DNA from: Haematomicrobium sanguinis DSM 21259
GTDB taxonomy: Bacteria > Actinomycetota > Actinomycetes > Actinomycetales > Micrococcaceae
Length of the DNA stretch: 64,000 bases
NCBI RefSeq assembly: GCF_000688395.1
Contig: NZ_JIAG01000002.1
Coordinates: 62,001 to 126,000, forward strand
Reading direction: 5' to 3'
Shown: positions 52,966 to 60,875 of the stretch, piece after piece
Layout: every line of letters begins with the position of its first letter
Position numbering within the stretch: position 1 is the stretch's first letter
The notes under the pieces: generated by a model
What the model was told of the DNA's origin: nothing
Seen by the model: the letters and a program-made list of their open reading frames with translations, nothing else
Databases searched by the model: none
Made by a program: the position numbers and the translations under genes

Positions 52966-53420
52966 CAGCGCGTTCTGGCACCCCCGGATCCGCGAAACGC
53001 GAAACGGCGGTACGCGGACTGGAGATCGCGTTCGCGTCGCTCGGGGCGGCGTATCGGCGCTTCTTTGCCGCGGCCGCCGAAACGGTATCGCCGGGCCTGG
53101 TTCCCGGAGCGCTCAAAGCTCTCATGGTGATTAACCGTGTGGGACCAACCCAGTTATCGACTCTGGTCCCGCTCCTGCACTCGGACAAGGGCATGGTCAG
53201 CCGTCAGGTCAGCGAACTGGAACGCCTGGGTCTCGTGGAGCGGCAGGGCGATCCCGACGATGCGCGTGTGCGCCTGATCCAGATCAGTGAGCTTGGCGCC
53301 GAACGTCTCGAGCAGGCGCGGCGCCCTCACCTCGATCGACTACACCGCATCCTTGCCGACTGGCCGATCGAGGACATCGACAAGCTGGCCGGATTGTTGA
53401 ACGAGGTCAGCGAGGGCTAG
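52962..53420 (+). CDS. MarR-family regulator
   Basis: A 152-residue winged-helix regulator, translationally coupled to the MFS gene (GTGA overlap). The recognition region is TQLSTLVPLLHSDKGMVSRQVSELERLGLVERQGDPDDARVR (cores HSDKGMVSRQVSELERLGLV and GDPDDARVRLIQIS), which includes the wing with the DxR motif. It probably represses the operon through the dyads at 51173-51219 and is released by a pump substrate. Its TAG shares CTAG with the TAG of the convergent monooxygenase gene. Confidence 0.9.
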   Translation: MTARSGTPGSAKRETAVRGLEIAFASLGAAYRRFFAAAAETVSPGLVPGALKALMVINRVGPTQLSTLVPLLHSDKGMVSRQVSELERLGLVERQGDPDDARVRLIQISELGAERLEQARRPHLDRLHRILADWPIEDIDKLAGLLNEVSEG

Positions 53421-55282
53421 ACCTGAACCATGTTCTGCTCGAAGAAGTCGGCGAGCGCCGCAGTATCCTCTAGCGGCAGGACCGCCGCGACGTATTGATC
53501 CGGACGCACCACGATCACCGCTCCCGCGCTGCCGATCCCGCGTTCGGCAAAAATGTCGACGTCATCGTGGCGTGCGTAGATCTTTTCGTAGTCCACTAGA
53601 CCAAAGGGGCCGACGCGCGGCAGGAACACAGCGGGGATCTCGGGTATCTCGATCTCGTCATGGGTTTGCGGGTAGATGACCTTGATATCAAACACGCTGT
53701 CCGGATCCCCATCTGCCGGGGTGAAGCGGCCGAGCGGTGACTCGGGTGCGGAATCTAGCCAGCGCGCCCACTCGTTGAGCGCGGAGTGTTCGACGTCGGC
53801 AAAGGCGTAGATGCGCCAACGCCCGTCGGCCCGGGCATGGTGGCCGAGGTGCGCAGGGACAGCGTCGCCAATGCGCATCACCTGCGCGGACTTGAAGCGT
53901 TTACCCACCGTGAGCCCGGTGGCGAGTTCTTGATGAGTGGTATCCCCGGTGATCATGGAGGGCTCGTACTGGGTCATGAAGCCCGCGGGGAATTCGGCGG
54001 TCGAGGTGTAGAACTCGGCGAGCTCATCGGGACTGGAAAACTCTTCCGGCTTCTTGGCCATCATGGAGGACCACTCCCGGTCGAAGTCGATCAAGTTCTG
54101 TGCGATCACTTGGCGCTCGGCCGAGTAGGTTGCCAAGAGAGATTCCGGTGCCCTACCGGTCAACACCGAGCCGAGCTTCCACCCCAGGTTGAACCCGTCC
54201 TGCATGGACACGTTCATGCCTTGACCCGCTTTGGCACTGTGCGTATGGCAGGCGTCGCCGCAAATGAAGACGTGCGGATCGCGTTCGGCACCGGGCTCGA
54301 CGTCATCGAACTTGTCGGTGACGCGGTGCCCCACCTCATACACCGACCACCAGGCCACGTCTTTCACGTCCAGGGTGTACGGGGTCAGGATGTCGTTGGC
54401 CTTGGCGATGATGGTTTCCAAGGGTGTGGTGCGGACGTGCCCATTGTCGCCTTCGGGAACTTCGCCGAGGTCAATGTACATCCGGAAGAGGTGTCCGCCT
54501 TCGCGGGGAATGTGCAGGATGCTTCCGGCCCGCGATTGGATGGCGCACTTGATGCGGATGTCCGGGAAGTCGGTGACCGCCAGGACGTCCATCACTCCCC
54601 AGGCGTGTTTGGACTGGCCGCCAAGGTGTTTGCGCCCAATGGATTCCCGTACTCGGGAACGTGCGCCATCGCATCCCACCACGTATTTGGCGCGAATGGT
54701 GCGCTCGGCGCCTTGGTGAGGGGCGTCGTCGTACTTCAGGCGAACCGAGACCGGGTATTCACCCTCGCCGACCTCGAGACCCAAGAATTCCACCCCGTAG
54801 TCCGGGGTGATGCGCGCGGGCCCGTTGACCGCGGATTCGGCGAAGTAGTCGAGGACGCGGGCCTGATTCACGATCAGGTGCGGGAATTCGCTGACGTGTT
54901 GCGGGTCGTCGACGGCGCGCGAGGTGCGGTGGATGTGATCGGGGTTTTCCGGGTCGGGGGCCCAGAAGTTCATTTCGCAGATTTGGTACGCCTCGGCGGT
55001 GATGCGTCCGGCAAAACCGAAGGCCTGGAAGGTTTCCACGCTGCGCGCCTGGATGCCGTCGGCTTGGCCGATCGCGAGGCGGCCCGGGCGCTTTTCGATC
55101 AGGCGGGTGGTGACGGTGGGGTACTGCGAGAGTTGCGCGGCCAGGAGCATGCCGGCCGGGCCGGAGCCCACGATGAGCACGTCGACGTTGTCGGGGATGT
55201 CCTCGGGGCGGTCGATTCCAGTGCCTGCGGCGGGTTCGACGCGCGGGTCGGTGGAGACGTAGCCGTGGTGGTGGAATTGCAC
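53417..55282 (-). CDS. FAD-dependent aromatic hydroxylase, 3-hydroxybenzoate 4-monooxygenase (MobA) like
   Basis: A 621-residue flavin monooxygenase. The FAD fold is clear: VDVLIVGSGPAGMLLAAQLS (about 33-52), RPGRLAIGQADGIQARSVETF (core LAIGQADGIQARSVE), VGCDGARSRVRESIG (about 212, the DG motif) and HVFICGDACHTHSAKAGQGMN (core GDACHTHSAKAGQGMN, about 345). A thioredoxin-like C-terminal domain completes the phenol-hydroxylase type. The N-terminus MQFHHHGYVSTDPRVEPAA and the region up to SEFPHLIVNQARVLDYF closely recall MobA of Comamonas. Start is GTG with GAAGGA 10 nt upstream. It is probably controlled by the divergent IclR gene. No ring-cleavage genes are in the window. Confidence 0.85.
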   Translation of the reverse strand: MQFHHHGYVSTDPRVEPAAGTGIDRPEDIPDNVDVLIVGSGPAGMLLAAQLSQYPTVTTRLIEKRPGRLAIGQADGIQARSVETFQAFGFAGRITAEAYQICEMNFWAPDPENPDHIHRTSRAVDDPQHVSEFPHLIVNQARVLDYFAESAVNGPARITPDYGVEFLGLEVGEGEYPVSVRLKYDDAPHQGAERTIRAKYVVGCDGARSRVRESIGRKHLGGQSKHAWGVMDVLAVTDFPDIRIKCAIQSRAGSILHIPREGGHLFRMYIDLGEVPEGDNGHVRTTPLETIIAKANDILTPYTLDVKDVAWWSVYEVGHRVTDKFDDVEPGAERDPHVFICGDACHTHSAKAGQGMNVSMQDGFNLGWKLGSVLTGRAPESLLATYSAERQVIAQNLIDFDREWSSMMAKKPEEFSSPDELAEFYTSTAEFPAGFMTQYEPSMITGDTTHQELATGLTVGKRFKSAQVMRIGDAVPAHLGHHARADGRWRIYAFADVEHSALNEWARWLDSAPESPLGRFTPADGDPDSVFDIKVIYPQTHDEIEIPEIPAVFLPRVGPFGLVDYEKIYARHDDVDIFAERGIGSAGAVIVVRPDQYVAAVLPLEDTAALADFFEQNMVQV

Positions 55283-55325
55283 CCTTGCACTTCCTTCGGG
55301 AGAGGAGCGCCCTCGCGAGCACCCT

Positions 55326-55350
55326 TGTTCGATAATTGAACACTGTGTTC
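55326..55350. promoter_or_regulatory. IclR-type operator between the hydroxylase and its regulator
   Basis: Three half-sites TGTTC, GAACA, TGTTC make two overlapping palindromes: a 17-bp one at 55326-55342 with one mismatch pair, and a perfect 13-bp GAACACTGTGTTC at 55338-55350. TACTAT, a good -10 for the iclR gene, begins at 55351, directly beside it. The gap is shared by both divergent genes, so one regulator can control both. Confidence 0.65.
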
Positions 55351-55397
55351 TACTATGTAAATAAGCTTAAGTGATGCGGAGCACAGGGGGCAAGGCG

Positions 55398-56099
55398 ATG
55401 AGTGCGGGGACGGCGGGGTCGCAGACCCTGAGTCGAGGAATTCAAGTGTTAGAGGCACTGGCCGACGCGGGCACGCCGCTCTCCATCGACGCGGTGGCTG
55501 GCCGGTTGGGCGTGCACCGCTCGATCGCGTATCGCTTGGTGCGCACCCTGGAGGATCATCGGCTGGTGTCCCGGGATTCGGCCGGGCATCTGGTGTTGGG
55601 CGCGCGGCTTGCCTCGCTTGCGGCCGGGGTATCTCAGGATGTGCGCTCGGCCGCGCTGCCGGAGCTGACGGCGGTCGCCAACGAGCTCGGGATGACGTGT
55701 TTTGTGGCGGTGATGGACCGGGATGAATGCGTGACGCTCACGAGTGTGGAGCCGCGGCATACTGTGGCGTCGGTGGTGCAGCGCCCCGGAGCGCGGCATT
55801 CGATGGCGGTGGGCGCGCCAAGCAAGGCGATTCTGTCGCTGCTGGATCCTTCGTTGTGGCCGGTGAGGGCGTCTGCCGCGTTGCGCGCGGATGTTGAGGC
55901 GGCCGCGGTGCAGGGTTTTGCGACCAGCCATGACGAGGTGATCCCGTCCTTGCAGTCGGTCGCGGTGCCCTTGGAGTTGCCGGGCCCATCGCAGCGGGCC
56001 GCCCTTGCCGTGGTGCACCTTGCCGGGCCGGAGGAGACCGCCGCCGTTGCCGCCCGGCTGCGAGCTGCGGCCGAGACCGTGCGGTCGGCGCTGGGTTAG
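55398..56099 (+). CDS. IclR-family regulator
   Basis: A 233-residue regulator. The winged helix LSRGIQVLEALADAGTPLSIDAVAGRLGVHRSIAYRLVRTLEDH (cores LSRGIQVLEALADAG and LGVHRSIAYRLVRTLEDH) lies at about 11-57. The IclR effector domain follows (LTAVANELGMTCFVAVMDRDECVTLTSVE, RHSMAVGAPSKAILSLLD). IclR proteins often bind aromatic acids, which fits the neighbouring hydroxylase. Start is uncertain: ATG at 55398 has a weak AAGG, while GTG 55371 or ATG 55374 add eight or nine residues. Confidence 0.88.
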   Translation: MSAGTAGSQTLSRGIQVLEALADAGTPLSIDAVAGRLGVHRSIAYRLVRTLEDHRLVSRDSAGHLVLGARLASLAAGVSQDVRSAALPELTAVANELGMTCFVAVMDRDECVTLTSVEPRHTVASVVQRPGARHSMAVGAPSKAILSLLDPSLWPVRASAALRADVEAAAVQGFATSHDEVIPSLQSVAVPLELPGPSQRAALAVVHLAGPEETAAVAARLRAAAETVRSALG

Positions 56100-56108
56100 C
56101 GGAGAGTG

Positions 56109-56143
56109 TTGACATATATAGTCCGCAATTGGACTATATATGT
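56109..56143 (+). promoter_or_regulatory. Leaderless promoter inside a perfect palindrome (HTH/NTase module)
   Basis: TTGACA (56109-56114), 17-nt spacer, GACTAT (56132-56137), then 6 nt to the ATG at 56144, so the mRNA should start at the A of ATG. A perfect 13-bp inverted repeat, ACATATATAGTCC (56112-56124) and GGACTATATATGT (56131-56143), with a 6-nt spacer covers the -35 to the start codon. It is almost certainly the operator of the HTH protein that follows. Confidence 0.8.
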
Positions 56144-56746
56144 ATGGAATTGACGAGCAAGCAGCTGGCCGCCGAATTAGGCGTGTCCGACCGCCAGGTG
56201 CGGCGTCGCGCCCAGGCAGGCTCCATGCCGTCGCGGAAGCATGGAAACACGCTGGTTATTTCTTCTCGCCAATCTCAAATACTGGCAAGGCTCGCGTACC
56301 GGGGCAGACATTGGTCTGACCCCACTGCAGATGCCGCGCTTGATCTGTTGTCCATGGCGGCAACAGGGGTACTTTCGGGTTCTTCGCTCAGCCGCTTGAA
56401 GCGAAATGTCCGCACGGTGAGTACCGGGGAACTCGTGGGTCGTGTTCTCCGGGGACGTTTTCACCTGCGTAGCAAACCAGGTTCAATAATCGAATTTTCG
56501 CCCTCAAACACCGCTGCCCTCGGGCTCGCTGCAGGCGGAGGATTGGGGGTCCTTATCTCGCAAGACCCCATTCAAGCGGCGCGACGTGCCGGGCTTGCCC
56601 GTGACGATGAGGGAAACGTAGCCGTAGTACAAGGAGCCGACCAACACCGCACCGTCCTTGAAGCGATGGCGCTCTTTGCCGCGGGCGACTCCCGCGAACA
56701 CGCCGCTGCAAAGCGGTGGCTCACGGAAAGGCAGTCCCGGGTGTGA
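56144..56746 (+). CDS. HTH regulator, putative antitoxin of an AbiE-like module
   Basis: A 200-residue protein. The N-terminus is an excisionase/MerR-like helix-turn-helix, LTSKQLAAELGVSDRQVRRRAQAG (core LAAELGVSDRQVRRRAQ, residues about 6-22). SRKHGNTLVISSRQSQILARLAYRG forms a possible wing. The remaining 150 residues (helical, with GLAAGGGLGVLISQDP near 120 and EHAAAKRWLTER at the end) match no family I know. The leaderless ATG follows the palindromic promoter directly. The stop overlaps the GTG of the nucleotidyltransferase gene (GTGA), as in type IV AbiEi-AbiEii pairs, although the N-terminal HTH is not the usual AbiEi wing. G+C looks lower than in the flanking genes. Confidence 0.72.
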   Translation: MELTSKQLAAELGVSDRQVRRRAQAGSMPSRKHGNTLVISSRQSQILARLAYRGRHWSDPTADAALDLLSMAATGVLSGSSLSRLKRNVRTVSTGELVGRVLRGRFHLRSKPGSIIEFSPSNTAALGLAAGGGLGVLISQDPIQAARRAGLARDDEGNVAVVQGADQHRTVLEAMALFAAGDSREHAAAKRWLTERQSRV

Positions 56747-57483
56747 TCGAGCGCCCAACCGTTAGGCTCGACGCATCGGGGACGGAATGGAAATTGCCAC
56801 CGTGGCCGCTCGCGTTCGAAATCGCGAATCTGCTTCCCGATTCATCGTGGACGCTGGTTGGTGGACTGATGGTTCAAGTCCATTCTCGAATCGCCGGCCT
56901 GCCCCCATCCCGAGCAACGATCGATGTAGACAGCCTCCTTCACCTGGAAACCAAGGTCACGACCTTCAATCAGGTCGAATACACGATGCGGAAAGCCGGT
57001 TTTTCGCTCAATCCGGACACCAAGTTTGCTTACCAGTTCAAGCGCGTGGACGACCGTGTTGATGTGATGTGTTCGGACCGGTATGCCGAACAGCATCGCC
57101 CGCTATTCGGTCAACGGCCCTTATTCGCCGTTCCGGCGGGAACTCGAGCTCTCAAAGACACCATCAACGTCAAGTTTCTCTCGCAAGACGTCACGATCTC
57201 GCTCCCGACTGTCCGAGGTGCATTCATCCTCAAATCGGCGGCCTACCTCGATGACCACCGGGATGCCGAGAGACATCTCGAGGATTGTGTATTACTTCTC
57301 GCCTGCCTCAGAGACCCGGAAAGCATCTTCGAGGATCTCAGCCCACGAAGTCGAAAGCGCATTCGCGCCGGTATCCGTGCGCTCCAACAAAGTCGGAGAC
57401 CGTGGATTAACCACGATGGACAGGTTCAACTCCTTGCCAAGGAAAGCTTGGAAATTATCGCAGGTGCATCTGATGCGCGCTAA
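56743..57483 (+). CDS. Nucleotidyltransferase-fold protein, putative AbiEii-like toxin
   Basis: A 246-residue protein with signs of the polymerase-beta-type nucleotidyltransferase fold of the AbiEii/MNT group. LVGGLMVQVHSRIAGLPPSR, then ATIDVDSLLHL (about 43-73), matches the GG..H...R.T.D[VI]D catalytic motif with two Asp. FILKSAAYLDDHRDAERHLE, then DCVLLLACL (about 165-193), resembles the later K..A...RD..D...L motif. Start is GTG at 56743 with GAAAGG 8 nt upstream and a 4-nt overlap with the HTH gene. AbiEii toxins transfer nucleotides to RNA targets; activity here is inferred. A hairpin terminator follows. The base composition, less G+C-rich than the neighbours, suggests acquisition. Confidence 0.72.
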   Translation: MIERPTVRLDASGTEWKLPPWPLAFEIANLLPDSSWTLVGGLMVQVHSRIAGLPPSRATIDVDSLLHLETKVTTFNQVEYTMRKAGFSLNPDTKFAYQFKRVDDRVDVMCSDRYAEQHRPLFGQRPLFAVPAGTRALKDTINVKFLSQDVTISLPTVRGAFILKSAAYLDDHRDAERHLEDCVLLLACLRDPESIFEDLSPRSRKRIRAGIRALQQSRRPWINHDGQVQLLAKESLEIIAGASDAR

Positions 57484-57497
57484 CGGGCCGGACGTAA

Positions 57498-57529
57498 CGG
57501 TCGCCCCACCATGCCTAGCGGGGCGACCG
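57498..57529. terminator. Hairpin between convergent nucleotidyltransferase and DUF305 genes
   Basis: A perfect 10-bp stem CGGTCGCCCC/GGGGCGACCG with a 12-nt loop, 14 nt after the nucleotidyltransferase stop and 11 nt before the DUF305 stop on the other strand. No U-tract. It probably ends transcription in both directions. Confidence 0.6.
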
Positions 57530-57540
57530 CCATCCAGCCG

Positions 57541-58170
57541 TCAGCTCCCCGCGAGCATCGCCTTCATCTCGGCGATCTCCGCGGTTTGCGCGTCGACGAT
57601 CTGTTGCGCAAGGGCGAGCGCATCGGGATTCTGCCCCTGATCCAGCTCGGTCTTCGCCATCGCGATGGCACCCTCGTGATGTTGGATCATCTGCTCAAGG
57701 AACAGCCGGGACGCGTCCGGCCCGCTCGCCTTCTCCAGCGCGGCCATGTCCTCCTGTGACATCATCCCCGAGCCCATGCTGCCGTGGTTCATGCCGGACA
57801 TCCCGCCCTCGCCGGGCGCAACCGTAGGCGCACCCCACGCGGCAAGCCAGGAATTCATCAGCTCGATCTCCGGACCCTGCGCGTCCTTAATCTTCTGGGC
57901 AAGATCCGACACTTTCGGGTCGACACCGTCTTTCCCGAGCAGCATGTCACTCATCTCGATCGCCTGGCGGTGGTGCGGGATCATCATGGTCGCAAACATG
58001 ATGTCGGCGCTGTTCGCGCTTGCCGACGCACGTGCCGACGCGCTCGCGCCAACACTGGGTTCCCCACTCGGGGGCGCAGCCGGACCGGGCGAGCACGCCG
58101 ACACGGCAAGTGTCACGGCGAGCGCCGCCACCGGAATCAGGGCGCGCTTGAGTACAACGGTATTTCTCAT
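57541..58170 (-). CDS. Secreted DUF305 (CopM-like) lipoprotein
   Basis: A 209-residue exported protein. The lipoprotein signal RNTVVLKRALIPVAALAVTLAVSAC ends in the lipobox VSAC (about residue 26). Two DUF305 halves each carry a His pair and a Met/Glu-rich helix: ATMMIPHHRQAIEMSDMLL (about 80) and LEQMIQHHEGAIAMAKTEL (about 160). A Met-rich loop (GGMSGMNHGSMGSGMMSQED) lies between them. CopM-type DUF305 proteins bind copper outside the membrane. ATG at 58170 with AAGGAG 5 nt upstream. It is the last gene of the copper operon that starts with the ATPase. Confidence 0.88.
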   Translation of the reverse strand: MRNTVVLKRALIPVAALAVTLAVSACSPGPAAPPSGEPSVGASASARASASANSADIMFATMMIPHHRQAIEMSDMLLGKDGVDPKVSDLAQKIKDAQGPEIELMNSWLAAWGAPTVAPGEGGMSGMNHGSMGSGMMSQEDMAALEKASGPDASRLFLEQMIQHHEGAIAMAKTELDQGQNPDALALAQQIVDAQTAEIAEMKAMLAGS

Positions 58171-58216
58171 TTTTTCTCCTTGAAATGTGTGTGGTGAATG
58201 AATGGGCCGCAACCCA

Positions 58217-58648
58217 TCACGTCCGCATCACACACAGCCGGAGATGGCGCCACCGCTGATCGCTCGGCACCCCGAGGAAAAATTCGCTGAGCCTGAGCGG
58301 CACCCGCCGCGGCATGCGCCACTGCGCCGGCACCACCGCGAGCCCGAGCGCAACCATCAGCAACGCGACGGCACACATCGCCATGGGCGCCTCCGCCCCG
58401 CTCATCATGGCGGCGCTCTCGTGGGCCGGGTTGGCGGCATGGACGGATTCGTGGCTGAGCGCGGGGCCGGCTTCGCCGTGCTGTTTTGGGCTGGTTTCCC
58501 CCGCGATGATGTTCGACGGCGCGTGCCCGCCACACGTGCCGGACAGTCCCGGAGAGTGCATGGTCACCAAACCGATGACCACGGCACCCACCAGTAGCAG
58601 TAGCACTACCAGACGGCGTCGGACGGACGAGGTGCGCGAAGGGATCAT
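58217..58648 (-). CDS. DUF6153-like membrane protein of the copper operon
   Basis: A 143-residue protein. The N-terminal membrane segment is LVVLLLLVGAVVIGLVTMHS. An extracytoplasmic stretch with TCGGHAP and several His and Met residues follows (HESVHAANPAHESAAMMSG), then a second membrane segment (MAMCAVALLMVALGLAVV) and an Arg-rich tail. Proteins like this, called DUF6153 in actinobacteria, accompany copper and mercury genes; the function is unknown. The His/Met content suggests metal binding. The ATG overlaps the ATPase stop (ATGA), so translation is coupled. Confidence 0.75.
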   Translation of the reverse strand: MIPSRTSSVRRRLVVLLLLVGAVVIGLVTMHSPGLSGTCGGHAPSNIIAGETSPKQHGEAGPALSHESVHAANPAHESAAMMSGAEAPMAMCAVALLMVALGLAVVPAQWRMPRRVPLRLSEFFLGVPSDQRWRHLRLCVMRT

Positions 58649-60822
58649 TCCGCTTCCGAGCCGCGTTCCGGCTTCGCGGCTGATACCTCACCGCGTTCCG
58701 GGGTCGCTGCCGCGACGGACTCCGGGCTGAGGTTCAGACGCCGCAAGAGCTGGGCGTTGAGCGCGACCACCACGGTCGAGAGCGACATCAAGATCGCGCC
58801 GACAGACATCGGCATGACAAATCCGATCGGCGCCAACACTCCTGCGGCCAGCGGGACCGAAATGAGGTTGTACCCGGCTGCCCACCACAGATTCTGTTTC
58901 ATCTTGCGGTACGCCGCTTGCGAGAGCACGATCGCAGCGACCACAGATCTCGGGTCGTCGCTGGCCAGGATGACCCCGGCCGAGGCGATCGCGACATCGG
59001 TTCCGGCACCGATGGCAAGGCCGACATTGGCTTGAGCGAGCGCCGGAGCGTCATTCACGCCGTCGCCGACCATTGCGACGATCGCGCCCTCATCTTGAAG
59101 TTGCTTGACTTTCGCGGCCTTGTCTTCGGGGCGGACACCGGCAAAGAAGCGGGTGATTCCTAACTCCTGTGCCACCGATGCGGCCACGGCTTCGGCGTCG
59201 CCGGTAATCATAACAACCTCGACACCGCGGGCCCGCAATTCCGCGACGGCTTGGCGCGATTCGGGCCGGATTTCATCGGCAAGTTTGAGCGCGCCGATCA
59301 CCTGGCCATCGGCAACCACGTGCAAAATGATGGCGCCCTCCTCCCGCCACTCTTCGGCGACCGGGAGCTCGGTACCGCCAACAGCCTGAAGCATCGCCGG
59401 ACCGCCGACCTGCACCGTTTTGCCCGCGACTTCGGCACGCACGCCGACGGCAGGAGAGGAGGAAAAGTTTGCGGCCGGCGGCACGTCAAGAGAACGAGCG
59501 GACCCCGCATCCACGATGGCCTTCGCCAAGGGGTGTTCCGAATCCGACTCTGCGGCCGCGGCAAGCTGCAACACCTGATCTGCCGTATACCCCGAGGCGG
59601 GTTCCACCGCTTTCACGGCGGGAGCACCCTCGGTCAGGGTGCCGGTCTTGTCAAAGAGCACGGTCGTCACGGTGCGCGTGTTTTCCAGGGCCAGCCGGTC
59701 CTTGACGAGGATCCCGGCCTTTGCCGCCCGCTCGGTCGCAATCGAGACGACGAGCGGGATTGCGAGCCCGAGAGCGTGCGGGCAGGCAATCACGAGCACA
59801 GTGATGGCACGGACAACCGCTTCATCTGGCATACCCAGCACCGACCACACGATCGCGGCCACCACGGCCGCGCCAAGGGCAAACCAGAAGAGCCAGCCTG
59901 CCGCCCGATCAGCGAGCCGTTGCGCCCGCGAACTGGAATTTTGCGCCTCGCGCACCAGTCGAGCAATACCGGCGAGCGCGGTGTCCTCGCCGACCGAGGT
60001 GACCTTGACGCGAAGCCCGGAATCGGTGGCAACCGTTCCCGCGACCACGGGATCCCCTACCGACCGCTCGACGGGTTTGGATTCGCCGGTGATCATGGAT
60101 TCATCCATGTTCGCGCTTCCCTGAACGATCGTTCCGTCCGCGGGGGTCCGGCCCCCGGGACGCACAAGTACGACGTCGCCTACCGCCAAATCGGCGGGCG
60201 TCACCTTTTCGGTGGTCTCATCCGAGCGACCTTGTGCCATGTCGGAGGGAACGATCCGCTCTGCTTCGTCGGGCAACAGCGCAGCGAGCGAGTCGAGGGC
60301 AGAGGTGGTTTGGGCGAGCGAGCGCATTTCGATCCAGTGGCCCAAGAGCATGATGACGATGAGCAGCGCGAGTTCCCACCAGAATTCGAGCTGGTGATCG
60401 AGAATCCCCAGCGTTGCGCCCCAGGACGCTAGGAATGCGACCGTGATGGCAAGCCCGATGAGCAGCATCATCCCTGGCTTGCGCGCCTTGAGTTCGCTGA
60501 CCGCGCCAGTGAGGAATGGTTTCCCACCCCAGATGTACATGACGGTGCCGAGAATCGGTGCGACGAAGCGCATACCCTCGGGAACCTGGTAACCAATAAT
60601 CATGGCGAACATCGGCGAGAGCGCTACGACGGGAATCGCTATGACGAGCATGATCCAGAACAGACGCCGGAACTGCGCCACGTGATCGCCGTGCCCCGAA
60701 TGGCCCTCGTGTCCTTCGCCGGACATGTCGCTGTGGTTCCTGCCCTGGTGATTGGCACCCCGGTGCGGTGATTCGGAAACGGTGGTATCGCCGTCGTGCT
60801 TTGGATGTGAATGCTGTTGCAT
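58645..60822 (-). CDS. copB: Copper-translocating P1B-type ATPase, CopB class
   Basis: Exports copper from the cytoplasm. The 725-residue pump lacks CXXC domains and has a His-rich N-terminus instead (about 1-50, SHPKHDGDTTVSESPHRG, GEGHEGHSGHGDH). Eight membrane segments are expected. The intramembrane metal motif is CPH in VIACPHALGLAIPLV (about 345-359), the CopB signature. The phosphorylated Asp lies in LFDKTGTLTEGAP (about 393), and the hinge MVGDGVNDAPALAQANVG near 590. ATG at 60822; the open frame begins earlier without similarity. It heads an operon with DUF6153 and DUF305 genes and lies behind a copper-type operator. Confidence 0.95.
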   Translation of the reverse strand: MQQHSHPKHDGDTTVSESPHRGANHQGRNHSDMSGEGHEGHSGHGDHVAQFRRLFWIMLVIAIPVVALSPMFAMIIGYQVPEGMRFVAPILGTVMYIWGGKPFLTGAVSELKARKPGMMLLIGLAITVAFLASWGATLGILDHQLEFWWELALLIVIMLLGHWIEMRSLAQTTSALDSLAALLPDEAERIVPSDMAQGRSDETTEKVTPADLAVGDVVLVRPGGRTPADGTIVQGSANMDESMITGESKPVERSVGDPVVAGTVATDSGLRVKVTSVGEDTALAGIARLVREAQNSSSRAQRLADRAAGWLFWFALGAAVVAAIVWSVLGMPDEAVVRAITVLVIACPHALGLAIPLVVSIATERAAKAGILVKDRLALENTRTVTTVLFDKTGTLTEGAPAVKAVEPASGYTADQVLQLAAAAESDSEHPLAKAIVDAGSARSLDVPPAANFSSSPAVGVRAEVAGKTVQVGGPAMLQAVGGTELPVAEEWREEGAIILHVVADGQVIGALKLADEIRPESRQAVAELRARGVEVVMITGDAEAVAASVAQELGITRFFAGVRPEDKAAKVKQLQDEGAIVAMVGDGVNDAPALAQANVGLAIGAGTDVAIASAGVILASDDPRSVVAAIVLSQAAYRKMKQNLWWAAGYNLISVPLAAGVLAPIGFVMPMSVGAILMSLSTVVVALNAQLLRRLNLSPESVAAATPERGEVSAAKPERGSEAE

Positions 60823-60852
60823 CGCTCTCTTGCCTCCCAGGATCTGCTTCCC

Positions 60853-60875
60853 AATATACCCCATAGGGGTATATT
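60853..60875 (-). promoter_or_regulatory. CsoR-type copper operator upstream of copB
   Basis: Perfect 10-bp arms AATATACCCC (60853-60862) and GGGGTATATT (60866-60875) around ATA. The core TACCCC-n3-GGGGTA matches the known CsoR/RicR operator form. It lies 31 nt before the copB start. No csoR gene is in the window, so the repressor must be encoded elsewhere. Confidence 0.78.

Follow-up and report, generated by a model that had tools for sequence, protein, structure and literature searches.

Within the window, the stretch of 64,000 nucleotides analysed here, two overlapping genes (56109-57483) stand between an aromatic hydroxylase locus and a set of copper export genes. An earlier note, made from the sequence alone, took them for an AbiE-like toxin–antitoxin or defence module of an undescribed kind. 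Which of the known nucleotidyltransferase systems, if any, does this pair belong to, and what would its two proteins do?

Gene organization and base composition

The first gene (56144-56746, ATG start, 200 aa) encodes a predicted antitoxin and autorepressor, and the second (56743-57483, GTG start, 246 aa) a nucleotidyltransferase of the COG4849/AbiEii superfamily, the predicted toxin. Both genes lie on the forward strand, as do all promoter and protein features given below. Re-reading the two frames confirmed that they overlap by GTGA (56743-56746), and their translation may be coupled by this overlap. The pair is also lower in G+C than its surroundings, as had been claimed (58.4% vs 62.5% for the window), and the gap is larger in GC3 (61-62% vs 77-81% in the flanking genes). 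The operon had further been said to end in a hairpin. There is indeed a strong one (57498-57529, z = -3.5), but we looked for a T-run and found none; since the hairpin sits between convergent genes, it need not be this operon's alone and is possibly a shared terminator.

On one side, positions 53417-56099 carry the genes of a FAD-dependent aromatic hydroxylase and a divergent IclR-type regulator, which are neighbours in some relatives too. Eleven relatives have the same IclR gene without the module next to it. On the other side (57541-60864), the genes of a DUF305-like protein, a small membrane protein and a copper-type P-ATPase are convergent with the module.

A promoter overlapped by a putative operator

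The earlier note had described a palindromic leaderless promoter. The palindrome stands: a perfect 13-6-13 inverted repeat (56112-56143, a putative operator) overlaps the promoter and adjoins the start codon of the first gene. Its arms (56112-56124 and 56131-56143) read ACATATATAGTCC-GCAATT-GGACTATATATGT, with the last base directly preceding the ATG, and no second site turns up in the 2.9-Mb genome when up to three mismatches are allowed. The promoter itself is less clear-cut. There is a -35 box TTGACA (56109-56114), but the promoter scan found no strict sigma-70 consensus match at the promoter of the pair, and the putative -10 element GACTAT (56132-56137), 17 bp from the -35 box and 6 bp before the ATG, was placed by position only. 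The transcript would then be leaderless. Because the palindrome contains part of the TTGACA box and abuts the ATG, any protein sitting on it would mask the promoter.

We then asked how far this arrangement extends to 77 loci at which the antitoxin start codons were picked by homology. A general palindrome scan done earlier upstream of antitoxins had its signal diluted by uncertain start codons, and picking start codons by symmetry is circular; the choice by homology cured both problems. TTGACA, or TTTACA, TTGACC and the like, occurs within -40 to -28 at 45 of the 77 loci. Mean dyad matches were 5.9 of 13 for a centre 16.5 bp before the start and 6.6 of 13 for one at 17.5 bp, relative to a background of 3.4 of 13 (sd 0.29). 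At least 8 of 13 positions matched at 58 of the 77 loci, vs 1.2% of shuffles, with the caveat that the loci are related and the 58 are not independent events. The half-site sequence diverges across loci while symmetry and position are retained. Two operator geometries are seen (L048-L127), which have their centres either 16.5 or 17.5 bp upstream of the ATG and differ in their half-sites. One of the two consensus sequences is ATTGACA.ATaT.GTC.c..a.G.GAC.ATAT.TGT-ATG and the second is TTGACAgAtaActTCgc..ATGcGAa..TaTCTGTc-ATG. The operator of Aurantimicrobium minutum (L048), TTGACATATATAGTCC-GATATC-AGACAATATATGT-ATG, is near-identical to that of the window. This conserved palindrome, to which the first protein would bind, is most directly read as the mark of a leaderless promoter under autorepression.

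The nucleotidyltransferase

The GG..H...R.T.DVD-type motif reported for the second protein is borne out by an alignment of 30 relatives. Motif I reads LVGG, and its G40-G41 (56860-56865) are invariant in 30/30. Motif II is R57-x-T59-x-D61-x-D63 (56911-56931), in which R57, D61 and D63 are invariant and T59 is near-invariant. The third acidic residue, D107 (57061-57063), and the motif III lysine, K164 (57232-57234), are also invariant. Absence of the paired catalytic Asp had been named as evidence against the proposal; the pair, D61 and D63, is present in all 30 relatives. The reported K..A...RD..D motif has to be amended: its Lys and Asp are there, but the conserved residues of motif IV are R177-H178-x-x-D181 (57271-57285), with D181 in at least 90% of the 30 relatives, and not the non-conserved R-D just before them. 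Many canonical AbiEii have RD..D or KD..D where this protein has RH. All motifs of the DUF1814/AbiEii superfamily, namely I (hG[G/S]), II (DhD with Arg), III (Lys) and IV (Asp), are present. By sequence, the active site is of the polymerase-beta type and complete. In a second subgroup of relatives (L024-L028, L030), LVGGQM replaces LVGGLM; the two-gene layout is kept, similarity is lower and the antitoxin is more divergent.

Single-sequence searches of Pfam, NCBIfam, PHROGs and PDB with the toxin returned nothing useful. By profile comparison (hhalign), it is closest to the COG4849 nucleotidyltransferases (E 1.1e-11, prob 97.4, score 84.9, 170 columns), with a maximal score of 16.9 among column-shuffled controls. 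The solved structure closest by sequence profile is MenT1 (E 9e-4); the R-x-T-x-D-x-D motif is aligned, and T59 falls on the phospho-acceptor T39. Residues T39, D41 and K137 matter for MenT1 function (PMC11375011). The active site of the window toxin follows the R-x-T/S-x-D-x-D pattern of the tRNA nucleotidyltransferase toxins MenT1 and MenT3 and retains their phospho-acceptor position, but the similarity is confined to the nucleotidyltransferase core and the antitoxins come from other families.

The antitoxin

The excisionase-like HTH attributed to the first protein was recovered as an excisionase/MerR-type winged HTH at residues 3-40 (56150-56263; HTH_17 E 1e-4, TIGR01764 E 0.008). Foldseek matched BldC, Xis and RdfS over the HTH only, the structure search gave nothing beyond it, and the PADLOC mad1 matches are also limited to it. 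The domain that had gone unrecognised is, by its sequence profile, a remote COG4861/AbiEi_2 domain (residues 131-200, 56534-56743). The C-terminal profile aligns with COG4861 over 78 columns (hhalign prob 87.7, E 3.4e-6, score 41.4), including the ADL..S.D.RE..A segment, and column-shuffled controls reach at most 13.5. It matches neither COG4849 nor COG5340 (prob 0.2 for the latter). One antitoxin relative matched AbiEi_2, and this match lay in the C-terminal domain, not in the HTH. The statement that this protein is unlike the usual AbiEi hence remains true for the canonical COG5340 type, but not for the AbiEi_2 type. We take PF09952 (AbiEi_2) to correspond to COG4861, and the nucleotidyltransferase partners of COG4861 to correspond to COG4849.

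The full-length antitoxin profile had no hit at E 10 among full-length COG4861 proteins and so does not recognise them, which indicates a different architecture. The antitoxins of the window family have 200-240 aa and an N-terminal excisionase-type HTH, whereas in the COG4861 proteins recovered (~320-400 aa) the shared domain follows a long N-terminal region. The assignment of AbiEi_2-type antitoxins and nucleotidyltransferase partners also leans on Dy et al. (PMC3985639). Rv0837c (MenA2) is a COG4861 protein (PMC7319586); the comparison here used other COG4861 proteins.

Distribution, pairing and decay

Toxin relatives are found in 52 of the 396 sampled genomes of the order and on 38 plasmid records, mostly of Rhodococcus and Arthrobacter-type. 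A scan of viral_contigs found no toxin relative, and phage records gave one match only. The GTDB genome collection has 313 stretches with relatives, and the best 80 of these are all actinobacterial by record title. Among the matches listed, the nearest toxin relative is that of A. minutum (56%), and the sampled genomes of the organism's own family reach ~42% at best. This closest relative in another genus, the near-identical operator there and the low GC3 suggest that the module was horizontally transferred. On plasmid pBD2 of R. erythropolis (L034 4301-5768), the pair has VWA and AAA-ATPase genes nearby, and ~1.7 kb away is a gene annotated as RAMP superfamily CRISPR-associated protein. About one fifth of the sampled same-family genomes have canonical AbiE pairs, with antitoxins of the COG5340 type (L128-L152); this genome has none.

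Unpaired, housekeeping homologues had been named as a second observation that would speak against the proposal, and the pairing found is instead nearly obligate. A homologue of the first protein precedes the toxin at 78 of the best 80 loci of the GTDB collection; the two remaining loci do have the antitoxin, and no toxin frame was called there. Of 35 further loci (L024 being cut by a contig end), 34 carry at least part of the antitoxin; in the exception, L010, the toxin is degraded and interrupted by a stop. A search that started from the antitoxin gave 29 usable loci. At 9 of them (L207, L208, L210, L212, L217, L218, L220, L223 and L225) the antitoxin is full-length and the toxin is frameshifted, truncated, absent or carries an internal deletion; these are small numbers, and some broken toxins may be draft-assembly errors. 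We saw no intact toxin without antitoxin among the surveyed loci. Such an asymmetry is expected if the free toxin is harmful.

A probable MenAT2-like toxin–antitoxin module

Taken together, the motifs, the near-obligate pairing, the conserved operator, the one-sided decay and the plasmid carriage give good support to a toxin–antitoxin module of the AbiE superfamily. The AbiE-like module of the earlier note is upheld at this level, but its branch is the MenAT2-like one rather than canonical AbiE. We consider it probable that the pair is a COG4861–COG4849 (MenAT2-like) toxin–antitoxin module of the AbiE/MenAT superfamily, working by the mechanism outlined below. As in MenAT2 (Rv0837c–Rv0836c) and other COG4861–COG4849 pairs, the toxin profile is nearest to nucleotidyltransferases encoded beside COG4861 genes, the antitoxin has a C-terminal domain homologous to COG4861/AbiEi_2, and the antitoxin gene comes first, adjoining or overlapping the toxin gene. 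Membership fails on antitoxin architecture only, hence our wording of MenAT2-like with a different architecture. Our literature search, whose coverage is incomplete, found no paper on this combination of HTH and COG4861 domain, and the family appears to be undescribed on its own.

In the proposed mechanism, dimers of the first protein would bind the palindrome and shut off the leaderless promoter. Its C-terminal domain would keep the nucleotidyltransferase inactive, by contact or by driving auto-phosphorylation of the active site at T59. If the first protein fell below the second, the free nucleotidyltransferase would add nucleotides to RNA, tRNA acceptor ends being the likeliest target, and translation would stop. 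The module may in this way stabilise its replicon, serve as a stress or abortive-infection switch, or both. Of the two functions that the earlier note had offered, toxin–antitoxin or defence, the first is the one supported; the search for defence-linked evidence gave weak PADLOC matches only, the best being to a candidate family. This family, PDC-M21B, matches 11 of the 30 toxin relatives weakly by profile (best 2e-4), but no PDC-M21 partner model matches the antitoxin, and we found no paper on PDC-M21 function in the literature.

The pair could belong to the same family and have a nucleotidyltransferase that targets another RNA or a protein instead of tRNA, with plasmid or genomic-island addiction as its main role. 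Plasmid carriage and the RH..D of motif IV are in line with this, and overexpression of MenT2, the closest studied toxin, in M. smegmatis had no effect that could be detected (PMC10435456), which also counts against the MenAT2-like mechanism proposed above. Yet the characterised MenT1, MenT3 and MenT4 modify tRNA 3' ends (PMC10435456, PMC11541572), and we regard a different target as unlikely.

Identity with the canonical AbiE phage-defence system (COG5340–COG2253) is improbable. AbiE is likewise bicistronic, and it is autoregulated (PMC3985639) as is predicted for this pair; it shares an inverted repeat at the promoter, nucleotidyltransferase motifs I-II, the motif III Lys and the motif IV Asp, and 10 of the 30 toxin relatives match the AbiEii Pfam at E <= 0.1 (best 4e-6). 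Nevertheless, the window toxin has no PF08843 (AbiEii) hit above the Pfam cut-off and aligns with canonical AbiEii over 44 columns only (score 40, prob 61). Motifs I and II are 19 residues apart, vs 15 in AbiEii, motif IV is RH..D instead of RD..D, and a single palindrome abuts the ATG where AbiE has two spaced repeats. The AbiE loci of same-family genomes are matched by neither our toxin nor our antitoxin profile. Strict membership was rejected because the antitoxin C-terminal domain is unrelated by profile to COG5340.

That the pair is a regulator with a housekeeping nucleotidyltransferase devoid of toxicity seems comparably improbable given the patchy presence in the order, the horizontal pattern with its plasmids and the one-sided decay. 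It is similarly improbable that the second gene encodes an antibiotic-modifying enzyme of the ANT(2'')/Lnu type and the first its HTH repressor: the best Foldseek match of the toxin model (AlphaFold, pLDDT 93.7) is ANT(2'')-Ia (E 8.8e-5, low TM-scores), which has the same overall nucleotidyltransferase fold and ranks ahead of any MenT, but the toxin profile scores far lower with PF10706 (36, prob 46) than with COG4849, PF10706 matches 0/30 relatives at E 0.1, the R-x-T of motif II is missing from the PF10706 proteins recovered, ANT(2'')-Ia has no antitoxin partner, and here the partner has a COG4861 antitoxin domain and the decay of the pair is one-sided. This fold match and the incomplete invariance of T59 are nonetheless points against the MenAT2-like mechanism.

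More tentatively, and with rather less than even chances in our estimate, the family may be a distinct actinobacterial superfamily of nucleotidyltransferase toxin–antitoxins, in which a phage-excisionase-type HTH became joined to a COG4861 antitoxin domain, the leaderless promoter and palindrome have a fixed geometry, and the nucleotidyltransferase with its RH..D motif either acts on a new RNA or is kept silent because the antitoxin drives auto-phosphorylation at T59.

Identifying the antitoxin domain ties a widespread and mostly "hypothetical" pair of actinobacteria and their plasmids to the MenAT2 branch. The operator is sharply defined, so that autoregulation is testable with one short DNA fragment, and the relatives in Mycobacterium, Nocardia and Rhodococcus species are tractable. 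The comparison also suggests that antitoxins exchange the DNA-binding head and retain the domain that neutralises the toxin.
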